A DNA stretch of 26,395 nt from positions 1 through 26,395 of IMG/VR virus record IMGVR_UViG_3300037191_002925, one strand, 5' to 3'. Within the stretch, counting starts at the first letter, position 1, and each line of letters opens with the position of its first letter. The notes under the pieces are model-generated. The model made no database searches. It was given only the letters and a program-made list of their open reading frames with translations, and had not been told where the DNA came from. This document shows positions 121 through 21,654 of this stretch, in pieces. Made by a program: the position numbers and the translations under genes. The DNA comes from a virus.

Positions 121-2169
121 ATGAATGCACTGAGTCGTCCGTTGTTTGACATGCCCCGAAGTATGATAGAGGGGACTGGCATTACTAGTATGGCCTTGGG
201 AGACGATCCGGATGCGCCCATGCCTATGGATGCGCCCATGCCTATGAGCGAGCAAGAGGCTCGTGACATTGGTGGTATGATGGCAGGGAGCGTCGCCGGA
301 AAGATAGAGGAAACCGACCGCGGTATTGATGCGGCTGAAGACGAGTTGGGCATGATGAATGCCTTGCGTGGTGAGAATCGGTCTGAAGAGGACTACCGTG
401 ATGAGTTGTCGGAGCTTGTAGGCCCAAAAGATGCGGCGGCAACGCCTAAAAGTGTCCTTGCGCTTGTTCAACCTACCCTAGCCATGGTGCAACTGGGTGG
501 GCAGATGAGCGGGCAGGGGGGCAGCACGGGCGGTATTGGCGATCTAGGTGGTATGGGTGACCTCGGCGACATGAGCGCCTTGATGGGCGGTATGGGAGGT
601 GACTCTTTGGGGGGTCTTGCAACCATGCTCCCGCAAGACCAGCCAATGCCCATGGAAATGATGGCTGTTGAAGAAAACATCGCTGGTGTTATGCCCACTC
701 AGATGTTCTTGGAGGGCGGGGCAGCTTTGTCCGCCCCACAGATTAAAGAGATGCTTATGTCTCTGCAACCCGCAGTTCCTCAAACACCGGAAAAAGGGTT
801 TTGGCCGAGTGTTTTTCAAATAGGCGCTCCAGCTATTGCAGCAGGTCTGATGGGTGAGCCGGGAAAAGAATGGCGGACGGGCCTGGGCATGTTAACAAAG
901 TCATCATCAGCGGCCTTGCAAGAAGAGGAAAAGCGTAAACTGGACAACGAACGCCTTCAATACGCTTCGGAAGCTGCCGCTGGTACGAAAGCGGGCACGG
1001 CTTGGCTTGCACAACAAACGGCAGCAGACTTAGCTGAGGCCAATCGTATCAAGGCGCTTGCTGGTAGAACACCTTCAAAGATTACTTCTACACAAGCGGA
1101 AAGAGCCATTGCGGCTGCTGTCAGAAACAACGATCTTACAGCGCAAGAGGGAAGAGACCTGCTTCTTGAAATCGCGCGAAATGACGCGATGACCCCAGAA
1201 TCAAAGGCCGCTCTCGCTGGTAAATCCGCCGTAGCTCAGGCACAAGAAATAGCGAACTTAAAACTTCTTGGTACGTACGGCGAAGAGGTCAATAACGCAG
1301 CCTCTTCAGCGGGAACCATAGCGGATAGAGCTAGAGAATTTCAATCGGCTATGAAAGGAATAGATAGCGGTCCTTTCACAGAGTCCTTTAAAAACGCTTC
1401 TGATAAGATTCGTCAACTAGCTGGCTTGATAGGAGTGTCCCCCGACAGTTTCTTAAAATCGTTGGGGGCTGAGGGCGCTTATACGGATAAAGAAGAGTCG
1501 GGTAGAATAGCATTAGGACAGGAAATAGGGAAGCAGTTCACTATTGCATTCGCTACTCTTGTTCAAGGAAATCTAAATGAATCTGAATTCCAAGAAGTAA
1601 AAAGCTTGGGTCCAGACGCCCTTAAAACGGTTGAAGGAAATGCAAGAATTATCGAGCTTTATGAAAGATCTGAAAAAAGAGCTCTAGAAAAGCAACAAAT
1701 TTACAACGATCTATATAGGTCGGCACCTGTGGGACAATCTTCCCGAGTCACAATGCTCAACATTCGGGACAAAATAGCGGAATATGAAGCGGGTTATAGA
1801 AGCGAAGAGGCTGAAGAACTAGCTAAAAAGGATCCAAACTTTTACAACCCTCTGCCGACGTACGCAGGAAATGTTGACGTTGCAGTAACTCTCCGCACCC
1901 CCAAAATGAAAAGGTTACAGACAGGCACGGAGGACAGTGCTCTCTTGGAAAGACAGTTACTTCGAGAGCAGCTTGGTTCTGGCGATTCAGAACGAGTTAA
2001 AGGAGCTTTTAGGTTCATAATAGGTCCATCAAGGGTTACGAAGGGCAGCGATCTAGAAAAGGAACAATTCAGGTACTACAGCGGGGTGTTCCAGGAGATA
2101 CTAATGGGCTCAGGGTTTGATTTCAATCAAGCAGATGCTACTCGAATTGTAAAGGAGAACATTAAATGA
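121..2169 (+). CDS. Probable virion-associated protein, 682 aa, Met/Gly-rich N-terminus
   Basis: I do not recognise a family. The N-terminal 45 residues are Met/Pro-rich and contain a tandem DAPMPM repeat. Residues about 125-165 are a low-complexity Gly/Met stretch (GGMGDLGDM, GGMGGDSLGG). The remainder is Ala/Glu/Lys-rich and probably helical. The start is preceded by GGGTGAAGTGA, an acceptable ribosome-binding site. The stop overlaps the next start in ATGA, so the two large genes are translationally coupled. Position directly before a 1197-aa protein and an endolysin fits an internal virion or ejection protein of a podovirus-like phage. That role is inferred from position and composition, not from a domain. 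Confidence 0.85.
   Translation: MNALSRPLFDMPRSMIEGTGITSMALGDDPDAPMPMDAPMPMSEQEARDIGGMMAGSVAGKIEETDRGIDAAEDELGMMNALRGENRSEEDYRDELSELVGPKDAAATPKSVLALVQPTLAMVQLGGQMSGQGGSTGGIGDLGGMGDLGDMSALMGGMGGDSLGGLATMLPQDQPMPMEMMAVEENIAGVMPTQMFLEGGAALSAPQIKEMLMSLQPAVPQTPEKGFWPSVFQIGAPAIAAGLMGEPGKEWRTGLGMLTKSSSAALQEEEKRKLDNERLQYASEAAAGTKAGTAWLAQQTAADLAEANRIKALAGRTPSKITSTQAERAIAAAVRNNDLTAQEGRDLLLEIARNDAMTPESKAALAGKSAVAQAQEIANLKLLGTYGEEVNNAASSAGTIADRAREFQSAMKGIDSGPFTESFKNASDKIRQLAGLIGVSPDSFLKSLGAEGAYTDKEESGRIALGQEIGKQFTIAFATLVQGNLNESEFQEVKSLGPDALKTVEGNARIIELYERSEKRALEKQQIYNDLYRSAPVGQSSRVTMLNIRDKIAEYEAGYRSEEAEELAKKDPNFYNPLPTYAGNVDVAVTLRTPKMKRLQTGTEDSALLERQLLREQLGSGDSERVKGAFRFIIGPSRVTKGSDLEKEQFRYYSGVFQEILMGSGFDFNQADATRIVKENIK
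211..246 (+). repeat. Perfect 18-bp tandem duplication inside a gene
   Basis: The unit GATGCGCCCATGCCTATG occurs twice head to tail at 211-228 and 229-246. It is in frame and encodes DAPMPM twice. This looks like replication slippage that kept the reading frame. Confidence 0.95.
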
Positions 2170-5100
2170 GTAGCCTTGCGGAAGTAAGCCTCGAAGACGA
2201 AATAAGGGCGCAAATCGCTCTAGAAAAGGCGAAAGAAATAGAAGGCAGACCCGCTGCTATGGATACTGTAAGCCTAGAAGATCAACTTGAAAAGGAACTT
2301 CTTCTAAACAAAGCAGTGACCGTTCCGGGCTCTCAAGGATTGGGCGCACCATTTGGAGGTGATTTCCTGGGGGGTACTGTGGATTCAGATCGTTACCTTT
2401 ACCCGTTCATTAAACAAATAATAGAAGATAATCCGGATGCCTACACGATTTCTGATGATGATCCCCTGCGAGCCGTTCGATCAGGTCTGAGCTTTATGGA
2501 TTCTCGGTCGGCTAGGATTAAAAAAGCCATACTTAGTGGGGAGATAGAGCCTGAAGGTTTTGATTACAAAATATTTGATCAAAAAGCCAGTGAAGGAGAT
2601 GTCCCCGCAAACGCCGAGCAACAAAGAATTGATGCCATGGTGGCTAATGACCCTGCTTTTGGAAACAGGTTTTCTTCCGAAGGATCTCCTCTAACCGCTG
2701 GTGATCGGTTCAATTACGCTACGTTAGACACGGCAGAAGAAAAAAGGCAGTTTTTCAACAACCTCTATCCTGAGGGAGAGTTTTACGTCAAAGAAGTAGG
2801 ACAATCGTTTGAAGACCCAGCTCAAAAGGTCACGGTAGAGCTGTTTTCTACAACGCCCGGTGGAGCCTTGCATCAGGTAGATAGGTTTGATTATCAGAAC
2901 ACCTTTTCTGGGAGGGGATTGGCCGAGCTGTTCACTGAAACAAAGAAAGCTTTTAAAGGGGATGTAGAAGCTAAAGCTCGAATAGCACCGATCTATAACG
3001 ATATGGGCCTTGATATCGTAGACGTAGCAGGGGAACTCACTAACTTTCAAAATTTGCTGCCCGCTTTGATCGATGTTCTTCCGCAGAGCAAGGCAAAATC
3101 TGCCGTTCTTAGAGCTGCTTCCGGTGCCATAAAAGGCGGCGCTGCTTTTCAGTTAGATAAAATAGGACAGTGGCTCGATGATGCGACCGCTTTAGATGTG
3201 GTCCGTGGTGAAGATTCGGTAGTAACCACGGATAATATGGAATCTGCTATTGCTGGTGCGTTCACCGCCTTCAGCAAGGTGGGTGCGGGTGTTTTTGGGC
3301 TAATATCTGGATCTACAGCAGGAAAGCAAGCTTTCAAAGAGCTGTTTTTAACAGGAGCAAAAAACGATCAGTTAAATATCTTGAAGGCGGGGTACAACGC
3401 GGGTGTGCCCGTTACGGTAGGGAACTTAATTGATAGTGGAATTATGAAACGGCTATTGGCGCAAAGCCAAGCTTTGAGTCCAGAACTCTATGGACCAGTC
3501 AGAAAAGAACAGTCAGAGAAGCTCCTTCAATATTTAATGGATAAAGTGAACCAAAATGGCGGAGAGATAGATGGGGCAGTGACCCCAGAGCAATTAGGAC
3601 AGATAGTTGAAGGGATGTCTTCAAAAATTCGAACTGTGTTGTTTGATGACCCGCTAGATGCTAGCTCGGCCACAACAAATGCTCAGTTTAAAGCTGGAAT
3701 GGCCGCTAAAACTTTGCAAGAGATAGCGAAGTTCGACAGAAAAATCAGAGACGATCTTTTTCAGAATATTTTAAACTCTCCGGAAATCAAAAACGCGACG
3801 TTTAGGCTGGATCTAACTGATCTAAGAGCTCAAACGAAAGTTGTCCAAGAAGGAGTTTTGGGCACTCAAGAAAGACAAGTGACGAACGTGGTTGAGGAAG
3901 GAACGGTGCTTGATAGCTTTGGGAACGTAACACCGGGAGGCACTCAAACAAGCACTAAAACCGTAGTAGAAACCATCGGTGGACAATCTGCCGAGCTGGC
4001 AAAAATTTCTAAAGAGTTAGAAACAGCGCTTTTCAACGATCCTGTGAAGTCTCAAACAGGAGAAGAAGTGTTCAGTGTTCTGAAGCAAGTGGATGCTTAT
4101 AAGAAAAAACTGGCTGAAATGGTGGATGTCACCTCTACAGAGAACAAATACGTTGAAGCACTACAGAAGTCTTTAGATGGCGTTTGGGACCAAGCGTTGG
4201 ATCAACTTGGGGGTGTTGCCCCTAATATGAAAGAAACGGTGGCCCAGGCTAAGTGGTTGAGTCAGTACACGACCAACACGTTGAGAACGGGTTATATCGG
4301 GCGAGCCTTGCAGGGCGGAAATACTAGACCGTTTGAAAGCTTGATACAGCCTTTTTTAGACGGACAAAAGGTGTTGGGTCCGGATGATTTAGCTTCGTTA
4401 GCTACTCTTGTAGACAATGTTCCCGCGAACATCCCAAAACAATATTTGGGCGAGTCTGGAGAGATAGTCGCAGCGATGACTAGGGGTGAACGAAAAAAGA
4501 TTGTTGATAGATTTAGAGGTCATTTAAAAGAAGCAACAACTCTCGCGTTACAGGCAGAGCCAGGAAAGCTTGCGGGGAAGCTCTTGGAAATAACGGGGTT
4601 CAAGGATTTATCTAGAACACGCGACATCATAGACAATCCGAACTTAAAATGGTTCTTCCCTAGTTTAGAAGAGCGGACAAGAATAGTTAGCCAAGCCCAG
4701 CTTTTAGAAAAATTTGAAACAGGGCTGTCCCCTTTTAGAGAAGCGGTAGAAGACGCTTCATCAGGACTTTCCCAACTCCTACCTTCTTTAGAAGGTAAAG
4801 GGTTTTTAGGAGAAGCAGCGGAAGAATCTCAGGGAATTATATCGGCTCTTCTAGCTAAACTGGGGTCAAATAGGGGCGCACCTCTTTCACCAGGACAAAC
4901 AAGTGCACAAGACATTAAAGTTGTCTTTAACACGTTAACAGGAGATTCTCGTGTAGCGGTAAAAAAACAGCTACAAAAACATTTCTTGGGGAGCATCCTA
5001 AACGAGGTTTCAAAAGAAACGGCAGCGGAAGGGACTCTTGGAGTCGCTTATAATAAGGTTAGCAAGGCTATCGCTGATATGAGGGGAAGAAATTCTCCTA

Positions 5101-5759
5101 TGAGCGTTCTTTATGATTGGGTTATGGAGGATGTTCCTGAGCTAGGAGACGTGGTTTCAACCCTTGGCAGACTTAGCACGGTGTTTAAGGATGCTGAAGA
5201 TTTTGGGGCTAGCCTTTCCGCAGCGCAAGAGGCCTCAAAAGCTGGTGAACTTGCAATGAAGGGGCAGGTTCCAGCTCTGCTGAAAATTCTTATGAAACAA
5301 AAAGTTATGGCAGCGGTCTTTACAGAGCCTGTAACTTTGGCTCAATTTGAGCATATGCTCAAACAAGATCAGGTAGGTAAAAGAGTTCAAAAAACCCTTG
5401 GCCGATTGATCATGAAAACGGCGGTCAGAGAAGCACCAAGACGAAACTATGAGCTTAATACGTTAGGAGACGGCGTTAAACGGGTTAATATCACGCCTAT
5501 GTCCGGTAAAGCAGTGAATAGAAGTTACCCGGACTTAGCTGCGGAGAGAATAAAAACCACCCCTCAAGGCTCTCGGTTAGATGAGATCTTACCAGGAACA
5601 GATAGGATGCTCTTCGAAACCATTCCTTCCGGTCAGAGAGCTACCCCACTGAGAAAACCAACTGCTTCCCTTGGGTTGCCACCGCCGTCAGCCCCCCCAC
5701 AAGGGGGGATTGCTAGTCTAGCTGGGTTAGAAAAGGTAGGGATGCCGTTATTCACTTAG
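2166..5759 (+). CDS. Very large probable internal virion/ejection protein, 1197 aa
   Basis: The ATG overlaps the previous stop (ATGA). This is the largest gene in the window. The sequence is mostly helical in character and rich in Glu, Lys, Ala and Leu, with a Gly/Ala-rich hydrophobic patch around residues 358-385 (AGAFTAFSKVGAGVFGLISG) that could contact membrane. The C-terminus is Pro-rich (LPPPSAPPQGG) and ends in GMPLFT. I see no lytic transglycosylase, protease or ATPase motif. Size, partner gene and place just upstream of the endolysin resemble the large internal core proteins that podoviruses eject into the host. A tail or scaffold-like role cannot be excluded from sequence alone. Confidence 0.85.
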   Translation: MSSLAEVSLEDEIRAQIALEKAKEIEGRPAAMDTVSLEDQLEKELLLNKAVTVPGSQGLGAPFGGDFLGGTVDSDRYLYPFIKQIIEDNPDAYTISDDDPLRAVRSGLSFMDSRSARIKKAILSGEIEPEGFDYKIFDQKASEGDVPANAEQQRIDAMVANDPAFGNRFSSEGSPLTAGDRFNYATLDTAEEKRQFFNNLYPEGEFYVKEVGQSFEDPAQKVTVELFSTTPGGALHQVDRFDYQNTFSGRGLAELFTETKKAFKGDVEAKARIAPIYNDMGLDIVDVAGELTNFQNLLPALIDVLPQSKAKSAVLRAASGAIKGGAAFQLDKIGQWLDDATALDVVRGEDSVVTTDNMESAIAGAFTAFSKVGAGVFGLISGSTAGKQAFKELFLTGAKNDQLNILKAGYNAGVPVTVGNLIDSGIMKRLLAQSQALSPELYGPVRKEQSEKLLQYLMDKVNQNGGEIDGAVTPEQLGQIVEGMSSKIRTVLFDDPLDASSATTNAQFKAGMAAKTLQEIAKFDRKIRDDLFQNILNSPEIKNATFRLDLTDLRAQTKVVQEGVLGTQERQVTNVVEEGTVLDSFGNVTPGGTQTSTKTVVETIGGQSAELAKISKELETALFNDPVKSQTGEEVFSVLKQVDAYKKKLAEMVDVTSTENKYVEALQKSLDGVWDQALDQLGGVAPNMKETVAQAKWLSQYTTNTLRTGYIGRALQGGNTRPFESLIQPFLDGQKVLGPDDLASLATLVDNVPANIPKQYLGESGEIVAAMTRGERKKIVDRFRGHLKEATTLALQAEPGKLAGKLLEITGFKDLSRTRDIIDNPNLKWFFPSLEERTRIVSQAQLLEKFETGLSPFREAVEDASSGLSQLLPSLEGKGFLGEAAEESQGIISALLAKLGSNRGAPLSPGQTSAQDIKVVFNTLTGDSRVAVKKQLQKHFLGSILNEVSKETAAEGTLGVAYNKVSKAIADMRGRNSPMSVLYDWVMEDVPELGDVVSTLGRLSTVFKDAEDFGASLSAAQEASKAGELAMKGQVPALLKILMKQKVMAAVFTEPVTLAQFEHMLKQDQVGKRVQKTLGRLIMKTAVREAPRRNYELNTLGDGVKRVNITPMSGKAVNRSYPDLAAERIKTTPQGSRLDEILPGTDRMLFETIPSGQRATPLRKPTASLGLPPPSAPPQGGIASLAGLEKVGMPLFT

Positions 5760-7349: not shown

Positions 7350-8795
7350 GTGACAACATACCAATTCAAGACGCAACCGTATGAACACCAGTCTCAAGCC
7401 TTGCATAAAGGAGCAGATGCGCCGTTTTTTGCCTACTTCATGGACATGGGAACAGGCAAAAGCAAAGTGCTGTTAGACAATGTGGGCCTTCTCTTTGAAA
7501 GAGGCGATATAAAATGTGCCTGTATCATCGCGCCCAAAAGCGTTTATTTAAACTGGGCGGCAAACGAAGTTCCGTCCCATTTGCCCGACCGTTTTGAACT
7601 AGACCTGCTGTGTTGGGCACCAGGGTCTTCCAAACGCAATGAAGAGCAACGGAAAAACTTCCTGCGTAAGGACGACTCTAAACTAAAAATTCTTCTTATC
7701 AATGTAGAATCTTTAAGCACCAAAAAGGGGACAGCGTTTCTTGAAAGGGTGCTTCGCGCTCATTCGCCTAACCTTTTAGCTATTGATGAAAGCACTACGA
7801 TAAAAAGCCGAACTGCTGCAAGAACCAAAACGCTGCTTCGGCTGGCCCAGTACGCGAGCTATCGAAGAATTCTTACGGGTTCACCTGTAACGCAGTCACC
7901 CTTAGATTTGTTTACGCAATGTGAATTTCTAGAAAAAAGAAGTCTAAACCAAAACTCCTACTGGGGGTTCCTTAACCGCTATGCAAAAATACAACGTAAA
8001 ACGATGGGTGCGCACAGCTTTCAACAGGTGGTGGGGTACCAAAACCTGGAAGAGCTTAACCAGATTATCCAGCCCTTTAGCTTTCGGGTACGAAAAGAAG
8101 AGTGCCTAGACCTCCCAGACAAGGTGTATCAGAAAAGGGAGGTTGAGCTAACCCCAGAGCAGAAATCGGCTTACGAGAGCATGCGGCGTGCCGCAATGGC
8201 CTTCTTAGAAGAAGGGGAGGTGACAGCTAGCACCGTACTGACGCAGCTGATGCGGCTCCAGCAAATTTGCTCTGGGCACGTGAAGAACGACCAAGGGGAA
8301 ATAATCACTTTCCCTTCCAACAAAATTAAGGTGCTGCTAGAAACGTTGGAAGAAATAGAGGGTAAGTGCATAATCTGGTGCAACTTCACCCATGATTTGT
8401 TACGCATCGCTGAAGAGATTGAAAAGGTGTACGGGAAAGAAACGTATCGGCTTTTTTATGGCGCTGTGAAGATGGAAGATCGGCAACAGATTGTTAAAGA
8501 GTTTCAGGAACCAGAAAACCCGTTTCGGTTCTTTCTTGGCCAACCCCGTTCTGGTGGGTATGGCCTCACACTAACCCAAGCTCAAACAGTGATCTACTTT
8601 TCCAATGGGTTCGACTTAGAAATACGGTTGCAATCTGAGGACAGGGCGCACCGCATCGGGCAGACGAACAAGGTCACCTATCTAGACATTGTGGCAAAGG
8701 GTACCGTTGACGAAAAGATCCTTCATGCCTTACGGGGGAAAATCAACCTCGCCACGCAAGTGATGGATGAAGGTTACAAAAAATGGTTGGTCTAA
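7350..8795 (+). CDS. SNF2-family (SF2) DNA helicase/translocase, 481 aa
   Basis: This ATP-driven DNA translocase has the helicase motifs in order. Walker A is MGTGKS (33-38), motif II is DEST (146-149, rather than the common DEAH), motif III is TGSPVT (from 176), and motif VI is QSEDRAHRIGQ (428-438), which is diagnostic of SNF2/RapA-type proteins. It is short and lacks extra chromatin-type domains, as in many phages. The start is GTG, with AGGGGCAACC just upstream. It is the first gene after the control region and heads the replication module, so a role in replication initiation, fork restart or clearing bound proteins is likely. No nuclease domain is fused to it. Confidence 0.93.
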   Translation: MTTYQFKTQPYEHQSQALHKGADAPFFAYFMDMGTGKSKVLLDNVGLLFERGDIKCACIIAPKSVYLNWAANEVPSHLPDRFELDLLCWAPGSSKRNEEQRKNFLRKDDSKLKILLINVESLSTKKGTAFLERVLRAHSPNLLAIDESTTIKSRTAARTKTLLRLAQYASYRRILTGSPVTQSPLDLFTQCEFLEKRSLNQNSYWGFLNRYAKIQRKTMGAHSFQQVVGYQNLEELNQIIQPFSFRVRKEECLDLPDKVYQKREVELTPEQKSAYESMRRAAMAFLEEGEVTASTVLTQLMRLQQICSGHVKNDQGEIITFPSNKIKVLLETLEEIEGKCIIWCNFTHDLLRIAEEIEKVYGKETYRLFYGAVKMEDRQQIVKEFQEPENPFRFFLGQPRSGGYGLTLTQAQTVIYFSNGFDLEIRLQSEDRAHRIGQTNKVTYLDIVAKGTVDEKILHALRGKINLATQVMDEGYKKWLV

Positions 8796-13770: not shown

Positions 13771-14046
13771 GTGGCAGTACAAATAACCTATGCAACGAAA
13801 GGCTTGCTGCGGGACATAAACCAGCAAGCTATTGAAAATGGCTATAACCGGGCTTGGGACGTTAGGTTTTTAGAGACCCTTCCAGAAGCTCACTACCCGG
13901 TTTATCACAGCGCCATACACAATGAAGAGCATATGCGCGTTGTGTTCATGCTTGACCAATCAGGCACAGAAGCCCCTTTAGACATGTCGTTTGAAGAGTT
14001 TGAGCACCTGCCCCGTTCAATGTTTGAAGATGAGGAGGAAGAATAA
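13771..14046 (+). CDS. Conserved small acidic phage protein, 91 aa
   Basis: The GTG start is chosen because AGGAGG lies at good spacing. The protein starts MAVQITYATKGLLRDINQQAIENGYNRAWDVRFLETLP and ends in a very acidic tail (MFEDEEEE). No known motif is seen. Its stop overlaps the DUF932 start as TAATG, so both are made together. An ssDNA mimic or partner of the DUF932 protein is conceivable, but there is no direct evidence. Confidence 0.8.
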   Translation: MAVQITYATKGLLRDINQQAIENGYNRAWDVRFLETLPEAHYPVYHSAIHNEEHMRVVFMLDQSGTEAPLDMSFEEFEHLPRSMFEDEEEE

Positions 14047-15074
14047 TGGCACACCTAGTAGAAACAATGGCCTATGCCGGAGAAGTTCCTTGGCATGGCT
14101 TGGGTCGGCAAGTTGAAGCTGACATGACCCCAGAGGAAATGCTGGAGGCTGCGCAGTTGAACTGGACCGTTTCCAAGCGGCCCCTATATACTATTAACAA
14201 GCCAAACGTGTGGAACATTGTGGACCCCACCGGTGAGGCTAGCTTCCTACCCGTTGAAAACCAACACGTCCTTATGCGAGACACTGATAACACCGTGTTG
14301 AGTGTGGCTGGGAATGATTATATCCCCTTCCAAAACCATGACGTTATGGGCTTTTTCAAGAAGTTCACAGAAGCTGGCTCCATGTCTATGGAAACAGCGG
14401 GTAGCCTTCGTGATGGCAAGGATATCTGGGGGTTGGCAAAGCTTAACAGCAAGACGGTGCTTGTAGGGGGCGACGAAGTCAACGGTTATTTGCTGTTAAA
14501 TAATAGCCATGAAGTTGGCAAGGCCATGACCATGATGTTTACGCCCATCCGTGTGGTTTGCAACAACACCCTCACACTGGCCCTTCAGCAAGGTGGGGCT
14601 CGTTTTAGGGTGTTGCATGTGCAAATGTTTGATGAAGAAATTATCTCCGCAGCGGAGAATGCTCTTGGGTTAACGGAAAGTGCGATGAAAGAGTTCTCTG
14701 AGCAAGCAACATTCTTAAGTGAACACCGTGCCACCGAAGCGCAACTAGATGACTACGTTGCAGAGTTATTCCAACCAAAAACGTTGATAGAACGGGGCAA
14801 AGCTTCTTCTAACGATAACCTGCCCGCCTTGCGCGATGAGTTTAAGCGCACGGCACTTGCTGTCCGAGATGCTATTGAAACCAGCCCCGGCTCCGACATG
14901 GCCTCTGCCAAGGGTACTTGGTGGGGCGCTTTGAACGGTGTGACGTATGTAACAGACCACCTGAAGAAAAGCCGTGTAGAGGGCAACGGCCTTCATAGTG
15001 CTTGGTTCGGCAGTGGGGCTAATGTCAAGCGCCGCGCTTTAGACAAAGCCTTAGAATATGCCAAGGCGGCGTGA
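14046..15074 (+). CDS. DUF932 family phage/plasmid-like protein, 342 aa
   Basis: The N-terminus (ETMAYAGEVPWHGLGRQVEADMTPEEML) and the GYLLLNNSHEVGKAMTMMFTPIRVVCNNTL core are typical of DUF932 (phage/plasmid-like TIGR03299 family). Members are encoded in replication regions of phages and plasmids, and their biochemical role is unsettled. Length is normal for the family. It is the last gene before a GC-rich hairpin and a new promoter, so it closes the replication module. Confidence 0.9.
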   Translation: MAHLVETMAYAGEVPWHGLGRQVEADMTPEEMLEAAQLNWTVSKRPLYTINKPNVWNIVDPTGEASFLPVENQHVLMRDTDNTVLSVAGNDYIPFQNHDVMGFFKKFTEAGSMSMETAGSLRDGKDIWGLAKLNSKTVLVGGDEVNGYLLLNNSHEVGKAMTMMFTPIRVVCNNTLTLALQQGGARFRVLHVQMFDEEIISAAENALGLTESAMKEFSEQATFLSEHRATEAQLDDYVAELFQPKTLIERGKASSNDNLPALRDEFKRTALAVRDAIETSPGSDMASAKGTWWGALNGVTYVTDHLKKSRVEGNGLHSAWFGSGANVKRRALDKALEYAKAA

Positions 15075-15200: not shown

Positions 15201-15677
15201 GTGAGCAGCTTAGAGGACTGGCAATATAGGTCTGGTTGGGCGGATGGTACAACGTTCACCGCACACGATCTTAAAACGCTAGGCTTGAAAAAAATTCTAA
15301 AAAGAAGGAAAAAACAAATGAGTACAGAAAGTGATGCACCGCTAGAGGTTCTAGAAGATACACCCGGCAAACGAGGACCAAAGCCTGATTACCCCGGCCC
15401 CAGTTCTGACACCCCTGCTGCTGAAAACGTAACCTCCCATGGAAAAGGGCGGGGACGAAATGAGTGGCTTGATAAAAAGCTGCTCATCGTTCCGTTGTTG
15501 GATGAGCCCGTTGGTGTGCGAAGAGACAGCAAGCGGTGGCGTAACCAGCAGGTGATCCTTCAGTGCAGAACAGTTGGGGAAGCTTTGAACAGGCTTTCTG
15601 CTTTGACCAGTCCAGGCAGCGGTGCGGACATTCGATTGGCGGTAAAAAAAGAAGTTATCGAGCTTAAAAAGGAATAG
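15201..15677 (+). CDS. Unknown basic protein heading the modification operon, 158 aa
   Basis: The GTG start follows a strong TAGGAGG site. The N-terminal 40 residues end in a basic run (KILKRRKKQ). A disordered middle has an AT-hook-like KRGPKPDYPGP and GKGRGRNEW, and the C-terminal part (WRNQQVILQCRTVGEALNRLSAL) may be folded. DNA binding is plausible from charge only. An in-frame ATG at 15318 preceded by GAAGGAAAAAAC could give a shorter product. I do not recognise the family. It ends 4 bases before the pyrophosphorylase-like gene. Confidence 0.78.
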   Translation: MSSLEDWQYRSGWADGTTFTAHDLKTLGLKKILKRRKKQMSTESDAPLEVLEDTPGKRGPKPDYPGPSSDTPAAENVTSHGKGRGRNEWLDKKLLIVPLLDEPVGVRRDSKRWRNQQVILQCRTVGEALNRLSALTSPGSGADIRLAVKKEVIELKKE

Positions 15678-15681
15678 ATGC

Positions 15682-16560
15682 ATGAAAACGGAAAACGTAG
15701 AAAGTTTTTTCCACTGGATCAACGAGCGCCATAGCATCTACCTAAAGCGGAAAGTTGGCCCAGCACCGTTCACAGAAGACGAGATACTGCAACGGTACAA
15801 GTTCACCAACCCGTTTCGTGAAAACGATCGCGTAACTATTTGGATGAGGCAGAACTGGACTAACCCGCACCAGCAAGCGCCTATTTGCCAGCAGATCTAT
15901 AACATCTGTCTTTTCAGGATGTTTGGAACGCCGGAGTTCGCAGAAGCTGTTGGGTGGCAAACAGAGTTCAACCCCAGCCTTTTAAAATCAACTGCCCGTG
16001 AAAAGTTGAACAGAAAAGAAAAGGTGTTCACGGGTGCTTACATCATCACTAACCAAGGGTTGAAACTGCCCAAGGAAGAAGTGGTAGTAGATCTCTTTTT
16101 AGAGCCCGTGTGGCGTAACAGTGAAGATCTAGCCAAGGTCGCTGAGCAGAAAAGTTTGAGGGCTATGCACAAGGCCCTTGGAAAGTTGAAAGGCTGGGGT
16201 GGTGGCGGGTTCATGGCGTATGAAGCTGTCACTGATATGAACTACACACCGGTCCTAGCTAATGCGAAAGATAAAATGACTTGGGCTAACGCTGGTCCTG
16301 GAGCCAAACGTGGGTTGAACCGGATCCACGATCGCCCGCTTACCAATGGCCGCGCCGATTGGAACCAGGAGATGAGAAAACTCCTTTTGCACAAGGACTA
16401 CTATGTAGCGATGCCTCAAGCTGATGACGACAACATTGATATGCGTTGCATAGAGCACAGCTTGTGTGAGTGGGATAAGTACGAACGGGTACGGCTAGGC
16501 CAAGGTCGGCCAAGAAGCAAAGTGTCCTATAACGATGGTGAGTGGTACCCGGTTAACTAG
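15682..16560 (+). CDS. Alpha-glutamyl/putrescinyl-thymine pyrophosphorylase-like DNA base hypermodification protein, 292 aa
   Basis: The N-terminal signature FFHWINERHSIYLKR (9-23), the TEDEILQRYKFTNPFRENDRV segment and the C-terminal CIEHSLCEWDKYERVRLGQG (from about 256) match the phage aGPT-Pplase family, related to the helical domain of 5-hmdU DNA kinases. These proteins are predicted to replace the pyrophosphate of activated 5-hydroxymethyluracil in DNA with an adduct such as putrescine or glutamate (phiW-14 and SP10 thymine hypermodification). It sits in one operon with a glycosyltransferase-like protein and a TS-family enzyme, which fits DNA modification. The final chemistry cannot be read from sequence. 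No kinase is present nearby. Confidence 0.82.
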   Translation: MKTENVESFFHWINERHSIYLKRKVGPAPFTEDEILQRYKFTNPFRENDRVTIWMRQNWTNPHQQAPICQQIYNICLFRMFGTPEFAEAVGWQTEFNPSLLKSTAREKLNRKEKVFTGAYIITNQGLKLPKEEVVVDLFLEPVWRNSEDLAKVAEQKSLRAMHKALGKLKGWGGGGFMAYEAVTDMNYTPVLANAKDKMTWANAGPGAKRGLNRIHDRPLTNGRADWNQEMRKLLLHKDYYVAMPQADDDNIDMRCIEHSLCEWDKYERVRLGQGRPRSKVSYNDGEWYPVN

Positions 16561-16569
16561 GAGTCCATC

Positions 16570-17586
16570 ATGAAAGAAGATACGGTTGTTGTGCACTTGA
16601 CAAAGTGCGCGGACAAAACGACTATTGCCAGTGCCAAGATCGCGAAGTTCATTTCTGATGAGTATGAGTTACCCTTGGTGGATGGGCCGGGGCAGTTTAA
16701 GAAAAAGTACCGCAATATCCTCTACGTCAACAGCATGGGTGCGTTTGCCCACCCTGACTTGCGTAGGGAGTTGGCGGAGCAAGCCCTTCATTGTGATCGG
16801 TTGGTTTATGTGCAGAACGATTACAACGTTCACCCTATCAGCCAAGTACAAAAGGTTGTGCGAGATGAACGGGGTTGGAGCCATGATTTTCCATTCACTA
16901 AAGGAGAGATTTTCCTTTGGGGAACAGTCCCGGAGTTTATAATCAAGCCCGGAGATGTGTACCTAAACTGGAACCAGCTCACCTATACCCCCTCCCCCCG
17001 TAGGGAGCCCCATAACGGGCCGCACAGCGGCTCCGTTTTTTACTGGGGTGCATGTAGGCCAGGGCGGAAGGACGCCTTCGCACGGCTGTTATTTGGCTGT
17101 TATGGCCATGCCAACTATCCAGTGGTAATTAGCTGTGCCACAAAAGTGCGAAACAAGTTTGCAGAAATCCCTAAAAGCTACACAGGGTTGCAGCACGAGC
17201 GACCAACCGAAGTCAGCTTTGTACGCCCCTTCAAAAGTGTAGAAGAGCTCCAGCAATACGGCTGCACCATCTATATGGAAGACGAAACAAGCAACGACCT
17301 GTACACCAGTCCGGCCAACCGATTCTATGAAGCACTCAGCGCAGACCTGTTCATGTTCGTAGACGACATCGCCGCGCACACACTCAAAAGAGCCGGGTAC
17401 GAAGTTCCCCCAGAGTGGATTATCAGTACTCCTGCAGACATAAAAAAGGTTGGCCTACCTGTTCCTGTGGCCCACCGTAACAAGCAAGCCATGCTATGGC
17501 GATACAAGGCAGAGGAAGGGCTAGAAGAGCTAAAACAAAAGGGTGCCCAAGCAGTGTGGGGACTTCAGAAAAAACTGAAAAAGTAA
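16570..17586 (+). CDS. GT-B-fold glycosyltransferase-like protein, probably DNA-modifying, 338 aa
   Basis: The C-terminal half carries SPANRFYEALSADLFMFVDD (247-266), the pattern with which GT-B glycosyltransferases bind the nucleotide-sugar (P-x-R-x-x-E-A-L followed by a hydrophobic strand). The N-terminal half (YRNILYVNSMGAFAHPDL, DRLVYVQNDYN) looks like the first Rossmann-type domain, and the interdomain start is GSVFYWGACRPGRKDAFARLL. The stop of the previous gene overlaps its AGGAG ribosome-binding site. Placement between the pyrophosphorylase-like and TS-family genes suggests that it adds sugar to a hydroxymethylated or otherwise modified thymine in phage DNA. Substrate and sugar are unknown, and assignment to an exact GT family is not possible by eye. 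Confidence 0.72.
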   Translation: MKEDTVVVHLTKCADKTTIASAKIAKFISDEYELPLVDGPGQFKKKYRNILYVNSMGAFAHPDLRRELAEQALHCDRLVYVQNDYNVHPISQVQKVVRDERGWSHDFPFTKGEIFLWGTVPEFIIKPGDVYLNWNQLTYTPSPRREPHNGPHSGSVFYWGACRPGRKDAFARLLFGCYGHANYPVVISCATKVRNKFAEIPKSYTGLQHERPTEVSFVRPFKSVEELQQYGCTIYMEDETSNDLYTSPANRFYEALSADLFMFVDDIAAHTLKRAGYEVPPEWIISTPADIKKVGLPVPVAHRNKQAMLWRYKAEEGLEELKQKGAQAVWGLQKKLKK

Positions 17587-17601
17587 GGGTGTAGAAAGAC
17601 C

Positions 17602-18684
17602 ATGTTCACTTTCAATGTGCGTAATGTAAGCGAAGCCCTGTTTGTTGTGAACCAAAGCCTAAAAGAAAATGGTGTACTTCGTGAAACACGAAACGGCCCC
17701 GCGTTAGAGTTTCCCGCGCCGGTCGCTGTTTCCTACAGTCACCCCAAAGAGCGGGTACTGTTCTATCCTCAAAGAGATGCCAACCCGTTCTTTCACTTCA
17801 TGGAAAGTATGTGGATGTTGGCCGGGCGCAGAGACGTTGAGTTTGTGCAACGGTTCAACAACAGAATGTCCGTCTACAGCGATAACGGTGTCAACTTCCA
17901 CGGGGCATACGGGTACCGATGGAAGAATTGGTTTGAAGACAACCAATTAGATATTATCATCGCACGATTAAAAGAGTACCCAAACGACCGCCGATGTGTC
18001 CTAAATATGTGGGATCCAGATAGTGATCTCACCTCTGGGAACCACAACGTAGATCTCCCTTGCAACACCCACATCTACTTTCGTGTGGAAGAAACAGGCT
18101 CCCTCGTTCCCAACCGGTTGCACATGACCGTGTGCAACCGCAGCAATGACATGATTTGGGGTGCGCTCGGAGCGAACGCAGTGCACATGAGCTTCCTGCA
18201 AGAGTACATGGCCGGGATGGTTGGCGTTGCGGTTGGAACCTATGTTCAGTTCAGCAACAACTTCCACGCCTACCTAGACACATTGCCCAAGTTGGAGGGC
18301 CTAGTCGCCGACTACGAACCCTACCTGACGTTTTCAGAAGTGAACAACACCCCCTTGGTAATGGATACGGAAACGTTTGAGGAAGAGCTAACGTACTTCA
18401 TGGACGGCCAAGAGCCCCTAATGCAAAGAGGCTACGACTACCTAAACGATTTTTTCCCCTACGTTGCAGAGCCCATGCGGGAAGCATGGCAGCTTTGGAA
18501 AAGCCCTACAAAAGAAGTTGGGAAAGCAATCCAAGCCGCTGAAAAAATTCAGTCTGCCGATTGGCGGGTGGCCTGTTGCGAGTGGCTTCAACGAAGGGCA
18601 CCCATGCGCTACGAAGTGAACACGCTAGCGCCAGAAGAAGAATGGGGCTGCGCAAGCGCACAAAAGCCCAAAGAAGGAAAATAG
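17602..18684 (+). CDS. Thymidylate synthase-family enzyme, probable dUMP hydroxymethylase, 360 aa
   Basis: The enzyme should transfer a one-carbon unit from methylene-tetrahydrofolate to C5 of dUMP. Catalytic Cys154 lies in DLPCNTHIYF. NRSNDMIWGALGAN (179-192) corresponds to the dUMP/phosphate-binding RSxDxxxGxPFN loop, with Arg180, Ser181, Asp183 and Asn192, and QFSNNFHAY follows. Asn at the base-recognition place favours uracil over cytosine. The loop has one residue more than in E. coli ThyA and lacks the PF, and the protein is about 95 residues longer than ThyA. Location in the modification operon favours making 5-hydroxymethyl-dUMP rather than dTMP, but a true thymidylate synthase cannot be excluded. 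Confidence 0.88.
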   Translation: MFTFNVRNVSEALFVVNQSLKENGVLRETRNGPALEFPAPVAVSYSHPKERVLFYPQRDANPFFHFMESMWMLAGRRDVEFVQRFNNRMSVYSDNGVNFHGAYGYRWKNWFEDNQLDIIIARLKEYPNDRRCVLNMWDPDSDLTSGNHNVDLPCNTHIYFRVEETGSLVPNRLHMTVCNRSNDMIWGALGANAVHMSFLQEYMAGMVGVAVGTYVQFSNNFHAYLDTLPKLEGLVADYEPYLTFSEVNNTPLVMDTETFEEELTYFMDGQEPLMQRGYDYLNDFFPYVAEPMREAWQLWKSPTKEVGKAIQAAEKIQSADWRVACCEWLQRRAPMRYEVNTLAPEEEWGCASAQKPKEGK

Positions 18685-18687
18685 CTC

Positions 18688-19026
18688 ATGGACAGTGAAA
18701 TCATAGAAGTTGTTAAAGCGCTTACTGAAAAAGATTGGAAAGCGCTGCGGAAGTCTGAAGAAAGCTACGGCGATAGCTGGCGCAAAAGAGGGGGAGTAGG
18801 TGCCTTCATGATGCTGGCCCGCAAGTGGGACAGGATAAATGTGCAAGTGGAAAAATCTTCCTACGATGTGTTCCACGCCGTGGAAGAAGACGGGCGGGAA
18901 GAAGGAATACTAGACGATATCAAAGACCTTCGGCGTTACCTTCTACTGGTTGAAGCGTGGTGTTGGATGCAAACCGAAGAATACGCCATTGATCAGGAGC
19001 CCATTGATCCCGAAGAGGACACTTGA
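18688..19026 (+). CDS. DUF1599-like nucleotide-modification-associated protein, 112 aa
   Basis: The motif SEESYGDSWRKRGGVGAFMMLARKWDRI followed by ILDDIKDLRRYLLLVEAW resembles DUF1599 proteins, small all-helical relatives of MazG/dUTPase-type nucleotide pyrophosphohydrolases that recur beside DNA-modification genes. It could hydrolyse an unmodified nucleotide so that the modified one is favoured. It begins 3 bases after the TS-family stop and is the fifth gene of the operon; the next start overlaps its stop (TGATG). The assignment rests on motif resemblance. Confidence 0.75.
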   Translation: MDSEIIEVVKALTEKDWKALRKSEESYGDSWRKRGGVGAFMMLARKWDRINVQVEKSSYDVFHAVEEDGREEGILDDIKDLRRYLLLVEAWCWMQTEEYAIDQEPIDPEEDT

Positions 19027-19202
19027 TGCAAGAAGGGGTAACCCCTGAAAGCAACATGGAAAAGCCCCTGCTGGCAACTTGCACTTGTAGCGCAGAAGCT
19101 AGGACACTTGTTGTTAGAACGCTCAAAAACAAATGGCCTAAGTGCTCTTGCGGCCTGTTCATGAAGGTTGAAAAACAATGGTTAAAGACCACAGACAAAT
19201 GA
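19026..19202 (+). CDS. Small zinc-ribbon-like protein, 58 aa
   Basis: The ATG overlaps the upstream stop by one base. The protein has paired Cys residues, TCTC (residues 18-21) and KCSCG (39-43), about 20 residues apart, with Trp and Lys between, consistent with a tiny zinc ribbon. Its stop overlaps the internal polymerase ATG at 19199 in ATGA. The double overlap makes it a likely real gene. Function is unknown; a polymerase accessory role is possible from position. Confidence 0.65.
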   Translation: MQEGVTPESNMEKPLLATCTCSAEARTLVVRTLKNKWPKCSCGLFMKVEKQWLKTTDK

Positions 19203-21112
19203 CCTTCTTTGCCCCCAAGGGGGAATGGGTAGCACCAACAGAATTTCCTGACCTATCAGCGTACAGCACCATAGCCGTGGATCTTGAAACAAGAGACCCA
19301 CACCTCCGTGAACGCGGTAGCGGGTGGCCCCGAAAAGACGGGTACATTATCGGTGTCGCAGTAGCTGTTGAAAATGAAGCATGGTACTTCCCTATCCGGC
19401 ATGAAATTGGCCCCAACCTTGATGTGAAGCGAACCTTGGGCTGGCTAGCTGACCTGCTTAAAGAACCCACTCGGCAAGTTGTGTTTCACAATGCGCAGTA
19501 CGATGTGGGCTGGCTCCTCGCTGAAGGGGTAACCATCCACTCGGCAATACGCGACACCATGGTGGTTGCCCCTTTGTTGGATGAAAATCGGTTCAGCTAT
19601 TCGCTAAATAATTTAAGCAGAGACTACCTTGCAGACATTAAGTCAGAAAAAGGCTTACGAGAAGCAGCCGCTGAGTTTGGTGTGGATGCCAAGAGCGAAA
19701 TGTACAAGCTTCCAGCCAGCTTCGTAGGGGCCTACGCCGAGCAAGACGCAGCGCTTACGCTACGGTTGTGGAACCACTTTCAAGTGCTGATTGTTAAAGA
19801 AGACATAGCGGATATCCTAGCTCTTGAAAACAAAGTCCTCGCTACCGTCATACCCATGCGGCATCGTGGGGTGCCCATTGATATAGATAGGGCCGCAGAA
19901 CTAAAAGGGTACTTCCACAAAAGAGAAGTAGAATTCCTAACCGAAATAAAGCGCGAGACAGGCAAAGACGTTGAAATATGGGCTGCTGCGAGCATTGCCA
20001 AAGCCTTTGACGCGATTGATCTGCCCTACCCCCGCACCGAAAAGACGGGTGTTCCAAGCTTCACCAAGTTCTGGCTAAAAAACCACGAACACAAAGTTCC
20101 CAAAATGATTGTAGAAGCACGAGAGCTTAACAAGGCCCGAACGACCTTCGTAGACACCATCCTCAAACATAACCACAATGGTAGAATTCACGCTGAACTG
20201 AACCAACTGCGAAGCGACGACGCAGGAACAGTCACCGGGCGCTTTAGCTACAGCAACCCTAATCTGCAACAAATGCCTGCACGGAACGCTGAAATTGGCC
20301 CGTTAATTCGCAGCCTGTTTGTGCCCGAAAAAGACACCGTGTGGGGCACCTTTGATTACTCCAGCCAAGAGCCCCGCTTGGTTGTGCACTACAGCAGCCT
20401 TCTAGGGTTCAACGGGGCCACGGCCTTTGCAGATGAGTACCATAAAGATGCAACAACAGATTTCCACCAAATGGCAGCGGATATTGTGGGCCTTCCTCGC
20501 AAACAGGCCAAGGACATCAACCTTGGGTTGTTCTATGGGATGGGCACCAAGAAGCTAGCGACGAGCTTGGGGCTGGAGTTAGACGAAGGTAAAAAGCTTT
20601 TTGAAGAGTACCACGCAAAAGTTCCGTTTGTGAGCCAGTTGAGCGAATACGCTATGAAGCGCGCTTCCACCAAGGGGGTGATCCGCACCCTGTTAGGTAG
20701 GCGGTGCCGCTTTGATAAGTGGGAGCCCAGCCGGTATGGCCTATACAAGTCTCTAAGCTACCAGGAGGCCTATGACGAGCACGGCCCTAGCATTCGCCGC
20801 GCCTTTACCTACAAGGCCCTCAACAAGCTTATACAGGGCAGCGCAGCGGATCAAACCAAAGCAGCCATGGTCGCCCTGCACGAAAATGGCTACTTGCCCA
20901 TGATACAAGTACATGACGAGCTTGACTTTTCGGTGTCTTCTGAAAAAGAAGCCAAGGAGATCAAAGAAATCATGGAAACCTGTGTAGAGCTACGGGTGCC
21001 CAGTCTTGTAGATGCTGAGTTCGGTAAAAACTGGGGGGAAGCAAAACAAACCTTTGGAGATAAACCATGGACACGAGGGATAACGGGGAAACACTCACAG
21101 ATGGAGACGTGA
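19178..21112 (+). CDS. Family A (Pol I-type) DNA polymerase with 3'-5' exonuclease
   Basis: This is the replicative polymerase. The exonuclease motifs are VDLETRD (Asp35, Glu37), FHNAQYD (Asn105, Asp109) and YAEQD (Tyr186, Asp190), so proofreading should be active. The polymerase motifs are A FDYSSQE (Asp393, Glu398), B RKQAKDINLGLFYG (Arg441, Lys445) and C VHDEL (His579, Asp580, Glu581). The residue equal to E. coli Phe762 is Leu449. There is no 5'-3' exonuclease domain. The start is uncertain: ATG 19178 has an AAGG site, while ATG 19199 overlaps the upstream stop as ATGA, the habit of this genome, giving 637 aa. It overlaps the next gene by 46 bases. Confidence 0.97.
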   Translation: MVKDHRQMTFFAPKGEWVAPTEFPDLSAYSTIAVDLETRDPHLRERGSGWPRKDGYIIGVAVAVENEAWYFPIRHEIGPNLDVKRTLGWLADLLKEPTRQVVFHNAQYDVGWLLAEGVTIHSAIRDTMVVAPLLDENRFSYSLNNLSRDYLADIKSEKGLREAAAEFGVDAKSEMYKLPASFVGAYAEQDAALTLRLWNHFQVLIVKEDIADILALENKVLATVIPMRHRGVPIDIDRAAELKGYFHKREVEFLTEIKRETGKDVEIWAAASIAKAFDAIDLPYPRTEKTGVPSFTKFWLKNHEHKVPKMIVEARELNKARTTFVDTILKHNHNGRIHAELNQLRSDDAGTVTGRFSYSNPNLQQMPARNAEIGPLIRSLFVPEKDTVWGTFDYSSQEPRLVVHYSSLLGFNGATAFADEYHKDATTDFHQMAADIVGLPRKQAKDINLGLFYGMGTKKLATSLGLELDEGKKLFEEYHAKVPFVSQLSEYAMKRASTKGVIRTLLGRRCRFDKWEPSRYGLYKSLSYQEAYDEHGPSIRRAFTYKALNKLIQGSAADQTKAAMVALHENGYLPMIQVHDELDFSVSSEKEAKEIKEIMETCVELRVPSLVDAEFGKNWGEAKQTFGDKPWTRGITGKHSQMET

Positions 21113-21654
21113 GCGCTTTCAAAGAACAGTTGGACCAACGGCTAGAAGGCGGCGATATCCTACGATACCACACCGCGCCGAAAGTTGGCCGAGGACAAAC
21201 GGTAGGTCAGCACACTTGGCGGGGGCTGGTTCTTTTAGATATGATTTGGCCTTCCGCGCCGATGCAAGTGTGGCGTTACTTCCTTTATCATGACGTGCCG
21301 GAGCTGTTTACTGGAGATATCCCCAGCCCTTTAAAATGGGCCAACGAAGATTTTCTAAGGATCATCACCCAGATAGAAGAAAACGTGTGCGACAAAATGG
21401 GGTTCCCTACCAAATCAGACCTATCTTTAGACGAACAACTTGTAGTAGAAATGATCGATGTTCTAGAGCTCATGCTTTACTGCAAGCCTTTAAAGGATAC
21501 AATTCGTAAGGCGAACCAGATATACCAAACGGGGCATGATAAGGTATGGAAGCTGAGTGTGCAGTTGGAGATGATACTACGAAAGTCAGACCCAAACGTT
21601 GTGCGTCAGCAAAGAACGGATAGCTTGTCTATCATCCGAAAGCTTTTGGATTAA
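21067..21654 (+). CDS. HD-domain 5'-deoxynucleotidase, YfbR-like, 195 aa
   Basis: Metal-binding motifs are QHTWRGLVL (His49), YHDVPELFTGDIPSPLKW (His75, Asp76, Glu79) and EMIDVLEL (Asp131), the YfbR arrangement. YfbR dephosphorylates deoxynucleoside 5'-monophosphates; related phage HD enzymes act on dNTPs. It starts inside the polymerase gene, with a GGAG site, so it is made together with the polymerase. In a phage that uses modified thymine it might remove a canonical nucleotide from the pool. DatZ (dATP hydrolase of 2-aminoadenine phages) belongs to the same broad family, but there is no PurZ in this window, so I do not assign that role. Confidence 0.88.
   Translation: MDTRDNGETLTDGDVSAFKEQLDQRLEGGDILRYHTAPKVGRGQTVGQHTWRGLVLLDMIWPSAPMQVWRYFLYHDVPELFTGDIPSPLKWANEDFLRIITQIEENVCDKMGFPTKSDLSLDEQLVVEMIDVLELMLYCKPLKDTIRKANQIYQTGHDKVWKLSVQLEMILRKSDPNVVRQQRTDSLSIIRKLLD

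Follow-up and report, generated by a model that had tools for sequence, protein, structure and literature searches.

Which modification of phage DNA is encoded by a block of four genes in the virus record IMGVR_UViG_3300037191_002925? The window, by which we mean the whole 26,395-base stretch that was analysed, is a fragment of the genome of an uncultured aquatic phage. A first-pass annotation had read the block as a thymine hypermodification operon, made up of an alpha-glutamyl/putrescinyl thymine pyrophosphorylase (aGPT-Pplase)-like protein, a GT-B-like glycosyltransferase (GT), a thymidylate synthase (TS)-family enzyme, and a DUF1599-like protein. Four adjacent open reading frames (ORFs) are present, head to tail on the + strand and separated by gaps of 9, 15, and 3 bases, and the motifs and residues that had been quoted for the first three of them were all found. 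Our results indicate that this cassette probably makes DNA containing glycosylated 5-hydroxymethyluracil (hmU), in which the GT would glycosylate hmU to a base-J-like base. The four genes are:

15682..16560, + strand: HMUDK_hel (PF18723), 292 aa, from a Pfam match and a full-length fold match
16570..17586, + strand: T4 beta-glucosyltransferase-type GT-B glycosyltransferase, 338 aa, from the predicted fold and hhalign
17602..18684, + strand: predicted TS-family dUMP hydroxymethylase, 360 aa, from family match, residues, and trees
18688..19026, + strand: conserved 112-aa protein of no recognised family, from conservation in the lineage

The identity of the second gene could be resolved only by fold comparison and profile alignment, since searches of Pfam, PHROGs, and NCBIfam gave nothing above cut-off, and a sequence search of the PDB was likewise fruitless. 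An alignment of 26 sequences of the family was used both for an AlphaFold model and for hhalign. The model was confident (pLDDT 85.6, pTM 0.86), and Foldseek placed T4 beta-glucosyltransferase (BGT) at ranks 1 to 3 among PDB structures (E = 1.3e-8 for 1qkj, 1.5e-7, and 1.9e-7; TM about 0.6 (0.61)), followed by other GT-B enzymes and T4 alpha-glucosyltransferase (AGT). Alignment of the family profile with the single T4 BGT sequence gave a probability of 96 (E = 4.9e-9) over 253 columns, with scores of 61-67 across runs; a rerun returned a probability of 94.8 and a score of 61. As nulls, 60 shuffled BGTs reached at most a probability of 2.2 and a score of 23.4, and 11 other proteins reached at most a score of 17.3. 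The two enzymes are about 19% identical over the aligned region. We identify the gene product as a predicted GT-B enzyme closest to T4 BGT, with a similarity well beyond chance, which bears out the earlier GT-B-like label.

Residues D84, R163, R166, R251, and E254 of the window GT align with D100, R191, R195, R269, and E272 of BGT, the spacing of R191 and R195 differing by one residue from that of R163 and R166. Of these BGT residues, we take D100 to be the catalytic base and the other four to form part of the UDP site. Where covered, the aligned positions are invariant among the 26 sequences, except for position 84, an Asp that is replaced by Glu in a more distant subgroup. The motif SPANRFYEAL is found at residue 247. 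The window enzyme thus shares with T4 BGT a predicted GT-B fold, the aligned Asp and UDP-site Arg/Glu residues, and a gene position beside a TS-family pyrimidine hydroxymethylase. It differs in its acceptor, which is predicted to be hmU rather than hydroxymethylcytosine (hmC), and in being encoded within an HMUDK_hel cassette.

A distant branch of this GT family, of the Cronobacter phage S13 gp57 type, was seen in contigs L005, L037-L042, and L044-L050; Glu usually replaces the putative catalytic Asp84, and HMUDK_hel and TS neighbours are mostly lacking. Another possible DNA- or glycan-modifying context is seen at L032:4189-6808 and L033:7998-10617, where a radical SAM gene lies between two different BGT-like GT genes and neither HMUDK_hel nor TS was recognised in the vicinity.

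The base on which the GT would act is predicted from the third gene. Its product belongs to the TS family (phrog_5131, E = 2.4e-109; PF00303, E = 5.2e-20), as had been annotated, with C154 as the catalytic Cys and N192 aligning with N177 of E. coli TS, the Asn of dUMP-type enzymes. The same Asn is found in the enzymes of SPO1-like Goe2, ViI, YuA (M6-like), and EP_H11, whereas T4 dCMP hydroxymethylase (gp42) carries Asp. In trees, the window enzyme groups with those of M6-like and other hmU phages, and in a tree without gp42 the hmU-phage side was split from canonical TS (ThyA/Td/Donner) with support of 100/100, the order within the hmU side being unsure on account of its long branches. Its nearest known relatives, at 45-47% identity, are TS-like enzymes from Pseudomonas phages in which HMUDK_hel is encoded as well. 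We predict that the enzyme is a dUMP-type hydroxymethylase making 5-hydroxymethyl-dUMP (hmdUMP); a dCMP-type enzyme was rejected on account of the Asn, rather than Asp, at position 192. Alternatively, the base could be glycosylated hmC, as in T4, with the TS-like enzyme acting as a dCMP/CMP hydroxymethylase. In the PDB, the window enzyme is indeed matched best in sequence by a CMP 5-hydroxymethylase (5b6d, E = 3.8e-16), and the BGT and TAGT of T-even phages act on hmC (PMC13216743). The Asn shared with SPO1-like, ViI, and M6-like enzymes and the HMUDK_hel-encoding company of the nearest relatives argue against this, however, and make a cytosine-based product highly improbable.

The first gene is a clear member of Pfam family HMUDK_hel (PF18723; E = 5.6e-46, 157.6 bits against a curated cut-off of 25, positions 2-276 of 281) and also matches phrog_2396 (E = 9.9e-57); FFHWINERHSIY lies at residue 9 and CIEHSLCEWDKYERV at residue 256. 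The aGPT-Pplase-like label that it had been given agrees with the older name of this family, aGPT-Pplase clade 1, which some annotated relatives still bear, while the present name refers to the helical domain of 5-hydroxymethyldeoxyuridine (5-hmdU) DNA kinase. The AlphaFold model (pLDDT 87.3) matched the homologues of PhiW-14, SP10, and RSL1 over the full length. The SP10 match, from the viral library, is 637 residues long and bears the name 5-hmdU DNA kinase; in YuA, which belongs to the genus of M6, and in PaMx11 a P-loop kinase gene lies just upstream of HMUDK_hel. Because of this match and this adjacency, an accessory role is suggested. We know of no activity of HMUDK_hel alone, and propose that it probably recognises or presents hmU in DNA. 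Against the PDB, the fold gave no significant match, only weak ones to endonuclease III/Ogg-like helix-hairpin-helix (HhH) glycosylases, so that an HhH-GPD origin is at present a lead.

A different possibility is that HMUDK_hel is itself the decorating catalyst, a relative of the amino acid:DNA transferases (ADDT), and that the GT supplies or adds a second group. Its predicted fold does resemble ADDT, more weakly than the homologues above (E = 2.9e-3, TM 0.58), the two have a short C-terminal motif around LC-W/K in common, and two contigs retain HMUDK_hel and TS with no GT between them. Given the links to kinases that suggest an accessory role, and the near-constant presence of a GT, we find such a catalytic role doubtful.

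How general the association with glycosyltransferases is was examined by searching viral contigs with the first and second genes. Dozens of contigs proved to share the cassette genes in conserved, syntenic order. Among 75 contigs with HMUDK_hel and a downstream TS, drawn from the best 80 loci and skewed towards the lineage of the window itself, the slot between these two genes holds a GT in 73. At least four unrelated GT families are involved (BGT-like, GTb, GT4-like, and TAGT), distributed as follows:

TAGT (PF20691), in most cases with a radical SAM gene: 28 of 75
GT4-like protein of 418-446 aa, a class set by length and a common N-terminus, with Pfam scores just under curated cut-offs: 24 of 75
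GTb, a Glyco_trans_1_2-type protein, the member scored against that model being also just under the curated cut-off: 13 of 75
BGT-like GT of the window: 7 of 75
GTb and BGT-like GT together: 1 of 75
no gene: 2 of 75 (L120 and L124)

Two of the contigs (L029 and L036) had been retrieved with the GT and not with HMUDK_hel as the query, and the picture is the same without them. The GTb profile found no match in the PDB, and the GT4-like profile a single weak one (E = 0.0012). The TAGT variant is matched by phrog_842 ("beta-glucosyl-HMC-alpha-glucosyltransferase"). BGT and TAGT are also found at one syntenic position in T-even phages, where they act on hmC (PMC13390438).

The slot contents change often. 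In a tree of the family A DNA polymerase (PolA) from 72 contigs, which are partly non-independent (60 distinct polymerases), at least 10 changes of slot state were counted. The clearest case is that of contigs L091 and L092, which blastn aligned at 96.5% identity up to base 7898, one base beyond the end of HMUDK_hel at 7897. From there, L091:7898-8869 encodes a GTb and L092:7898-9151 a GT4-like protein, with no similarity between them, and 90-95% identity resumes from bases 8869 and 9151, respectively, on the TS side. This is a clean gene-for-gene replacement of one GT by an unrelated GT.

Genes for making or trimming sugars track the type of GT, as expected if the sugar differs between types. 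An extra nucleotidyltransferase fused to a mannose-6-phosphate-isomerase-type cupin domain lies between PolA and the YfbR-like gene at L091:12304-13128 and goes with GTb, and a 142-aa cytidylyltransferase was confined to GT4-like slots (8 of 24); both likely supply activated sugar. Radical SAM genes occur almost only with TAGT slots, in 26 of 28 cases. FkbM methyltransferases, which perhaps methylate the sugar, go with BGT-like or GTb slots. The slot thus looks like a swappable DNA-armouring module. As to the positions of these genes, small cytidylyltransferases near PolA and YfbR were seen at L083:13407-13835 and L116:12397-12825, and FkbM-type genes adjoin TS or the GT in L007 (4519-5142), L026, L086, L108, and L125.

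These data also bear on whether the GT has a DNA target at all. It could modify lipopolysaccharide, capsule, or protein and stand in the operon by chance; surface-glycan GTs do occur in phages, and an acceptor cannot be proven from sequence alone. The nearest fold, however, is that of a DNA glucosyltransferase, and the slot is filled almost without fail by GTs of unrelated families. In addition, a scan of bacterial genomes gave no confirmed relative of the window GT, while its pairing with the cassette recurs in contigs L029, L036, and L043 and in two cultured phages of E. coli, EP_H11 and IME392, each with a cluster that combines a homologous BGT-like GT with HMUDK_hel and TS. A non-DNA target is therefore quite unlikely.

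The remaining question is whether a kinase and a transferase, rather than the GT, complete the modification, as in thymidine hypermodification by M6, YuA, and PaMx11 (Mesyanzhinovviridae). Three genes next to the cassette are relevant here:

15201..15677, + strand: 158-aa protein without a P-loop, conserved immediately 5' of HMUDK_hel across most of the lineage
19178..21112, + strand: PolA, presumed to incorporate 5-hydroxymethyl-dUTP (hmdUTP) (PF00476, E = 2.4e-63)
21067..21654, + strand: YfbR-like HD 5'-deoxynucleotidase (PF12917, E = 3.1e-8)

In that route, a 5-hmdU DNA kinase phosphorylates hmU and an amino acid or amine displaces the phosphate, as in M6, ViI, and PhiW-14; HMUDK_hel would be part of the kinase and the GT incidental or later. 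HMUDK_hel, a dUMP-type TS, an HD nucleotidase, and PolA in one block are indeed common to the window and M6, YuA, and PaMx11, YfbR-like homologues occur in the EP_H11 and YuA clusters, and the EP_H11 cluster contains a P-loop kinase beside its GT, along with a protein that is GT-A-like by eye (IME392 has the same layout). M6-like phages, however, additionally have the kinase, an ADDT, and tailoring enzymes where the window has a GT, and their kinase stands at the place of the 158-aa protein. The kinase family PF18748 gave no match in the window, in six lineage contigs of up to 62 kb, or in 21 further contigs of up to 69 kb, and ADDT (PF18724) gave none in the window and the six contigs, while the positive controls YuA and Sonora scored. 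Among the cassette-bearing loci examined, a Walker A motif occurs only in the UvrD helicase, and matches of the lineage to the general P-loop model AAA_28 were marginal and all under cut-off. Since neither the kinase nor ADDT was found in the sequences searched, the M6-type route is unlikely here. The earlier view of the block as a thymine hypermodification operon is thus retained in one respect: the GT fits a decorating enzyme, in line with its likeness to BGT, the unrelated GTs of sister phages, and the dUMP-type TS. The pyrophosphorylase or putrescinyl/glutamyl route was dropped as the main reading, since neither the kinase nor the transferase was found.

Several points weigh against glycosylated hmU as the product. 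The formation of hmdUMP from dUMP, its incorporation, and the O-glycosylation of hmU in DNA are deduced from the gene set. The profile alignment with BGT leaves out the N-terminal 42 residues, the part that holds E22 in BGT. The window is a 26-kb fragment, so that a kinase or transferase could lie elsewhere in the genome, and EP_H11 may combine phosphorylation with glycosylation. In L120 and L124, HMUDK_hel, which reads intact upstream of its called start, and TS are retained with an empty slot, suggesting either some independent function of HMUDK_hel with hmU or a GT at another place; no TAGT was found elsewhere in these contigs. Finally, T4 BGT can form base J from hmU when the DNA is single-stranded or the hmU is mispaired with G, whereas hmU paired with A is not a substrate (PMC4111573), so that a BGT-like enzyme working on phage DNA must be adapted or helped. 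Because of this failure on hmU:A pairs, the possible presentation of hmU to the GT by HMUDK_hel gains interest.

With these points taken into account, we propose that glycosylated hmU would arise as follows. Judging by its family and residues, the TS-like enzyme would hydroxymethylate dUMP to hmdUMP. This would be converted to hmdUTP, and PolA would incorporate hmU, replacing T in part or completely, while the YfbR-like nucleotidase, which probably trims the dTMP/dNTP pool, would suppress the competing nucleotides. The GT, given its computed fold and residues, would move a sugar onto the hydroxymethyl group of hmU to give a base-J-like nucleotide; by analogy with BGT, this would be glucose from UDP-glucose, transferred with inversion. 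HMUDK_hel, acting without a kinase, may recognise hmU in duplex DNA and present it to the GT. The sugar, its linkage, and this role of HMUDK_hel are what we infer. The product would shield phage DNA from host nucleases, and the nuclease resistance that had been anticipated for this genome is plausible by analogy. In sister phages, other GTs on the same chassis would probably attach other sugars. A broader proposal, which we put forward tentatively as a possibility, is that a widespread aquatic lineage carries a family of glycosylated hmU bases, built by a fixed chassis of HMUDK_hel, hmdU synthase, polymerase, and nucleotidase with exchangeable, unrelated GTs, in which HMUDK_hel would be a general adaptor that presents hmU:A to the enzyme in the slot.

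The predicted product belongs to the same class as base J of kinetoplastids (beta-D-glucosyl-hmU), an O-glycosylated hmU. Its origin would differ, however, as JBP1/2 of kinetoplastids oxidise T in DNA, whereas hmU of the window would arise at the nucleotide level. Similarly, glycosylated dihydroxypentyluracil of phage SP-15 is a sugar-bearing replacement of thymine, but its side chain is another, its TS is flavin-dependent, and its gene cluster is teichuronic-acid-like (PMC5977210). Similar in gene content are the HTVC023P-type pelagiphages, for which the portion of the published account available to us (PMC9599517) describes TS, aG/PT-PPlase1, a 5'-deoxynucleotidase, and a "beta-glucosyl-HMC-alpha-glucosyltransferase" near PolA. 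The combination of a GT with neighbouring TS and aG/PT-PPlase1 genes has therefore been published before; the window GT is from another, BGT-like family, and slot exchange, the missing kinase and ADDT, and the relationship to BGT are not reported in that portion. In the literature available, we found neither the BGT-like variant, nor many unrelated GTs in one slot, clean replacement, or the lack of kinase and ADDT; key primary papers lie outside that literature, and a prior mention of the exact combination is possible.

If confirmed, sugars would join the amine-type decorations of phage thymine, and the GT would provide a source of enzymes able to glycosylate hmU in duplexes, a reaction that T4 BGT does not perform on hmU:A. 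Phages with nearly the same genome would moreover be seen to exchange DNA armour gene for gene, which is what recognition of particular sugars by host defences would lead one to expect, and the role of HMUDK_hel would become directly testable.

The fourth gene of the cassette is conserved across the lineage. The DUF1599 label given to it could not be confirmed, as neither this ORF nor its longer homologues matched in Pfam or NCBIfam and PHROGs lent it no support; the homologues gave a weak PHROG match to a replication protein. Between this gene and PolA, a 59-aa ORF with a CTC...CSC cysteine pattern is found at 19023-19202, and relatives often have an ORF of 53-81 aa at the matching position.

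On the 5' side, the cassette is preceded by genes for a SNF2-type helicase, Pam3 gp32/33/34-like proteins, an AEP-type primase, a UvrD helicase, and DUF932. The DUF932 gene and a small ORF, both within 13771-15074, are regular companions 5' of the 158-aa protein in most contigs; L120 and L124 showed no DUF932 where it normally lies, and their counterpart of the 158-aa protein is shorter. The window PolA is nearest to those of HTVC023P-type phages (51-54% identity), and in the close relatives HTVC023P, HTVC027P, 023Pt_psg01, and DSL-LC04, PolA comes close behind the helicase, with no cassette genes annotated between. Scans for promoters and terminators gave chance level only. At the left end (121-5759), two long ORFs of 682 and 1197 aa had no significant Pfam or PHROG match and probably encode virion proteins.

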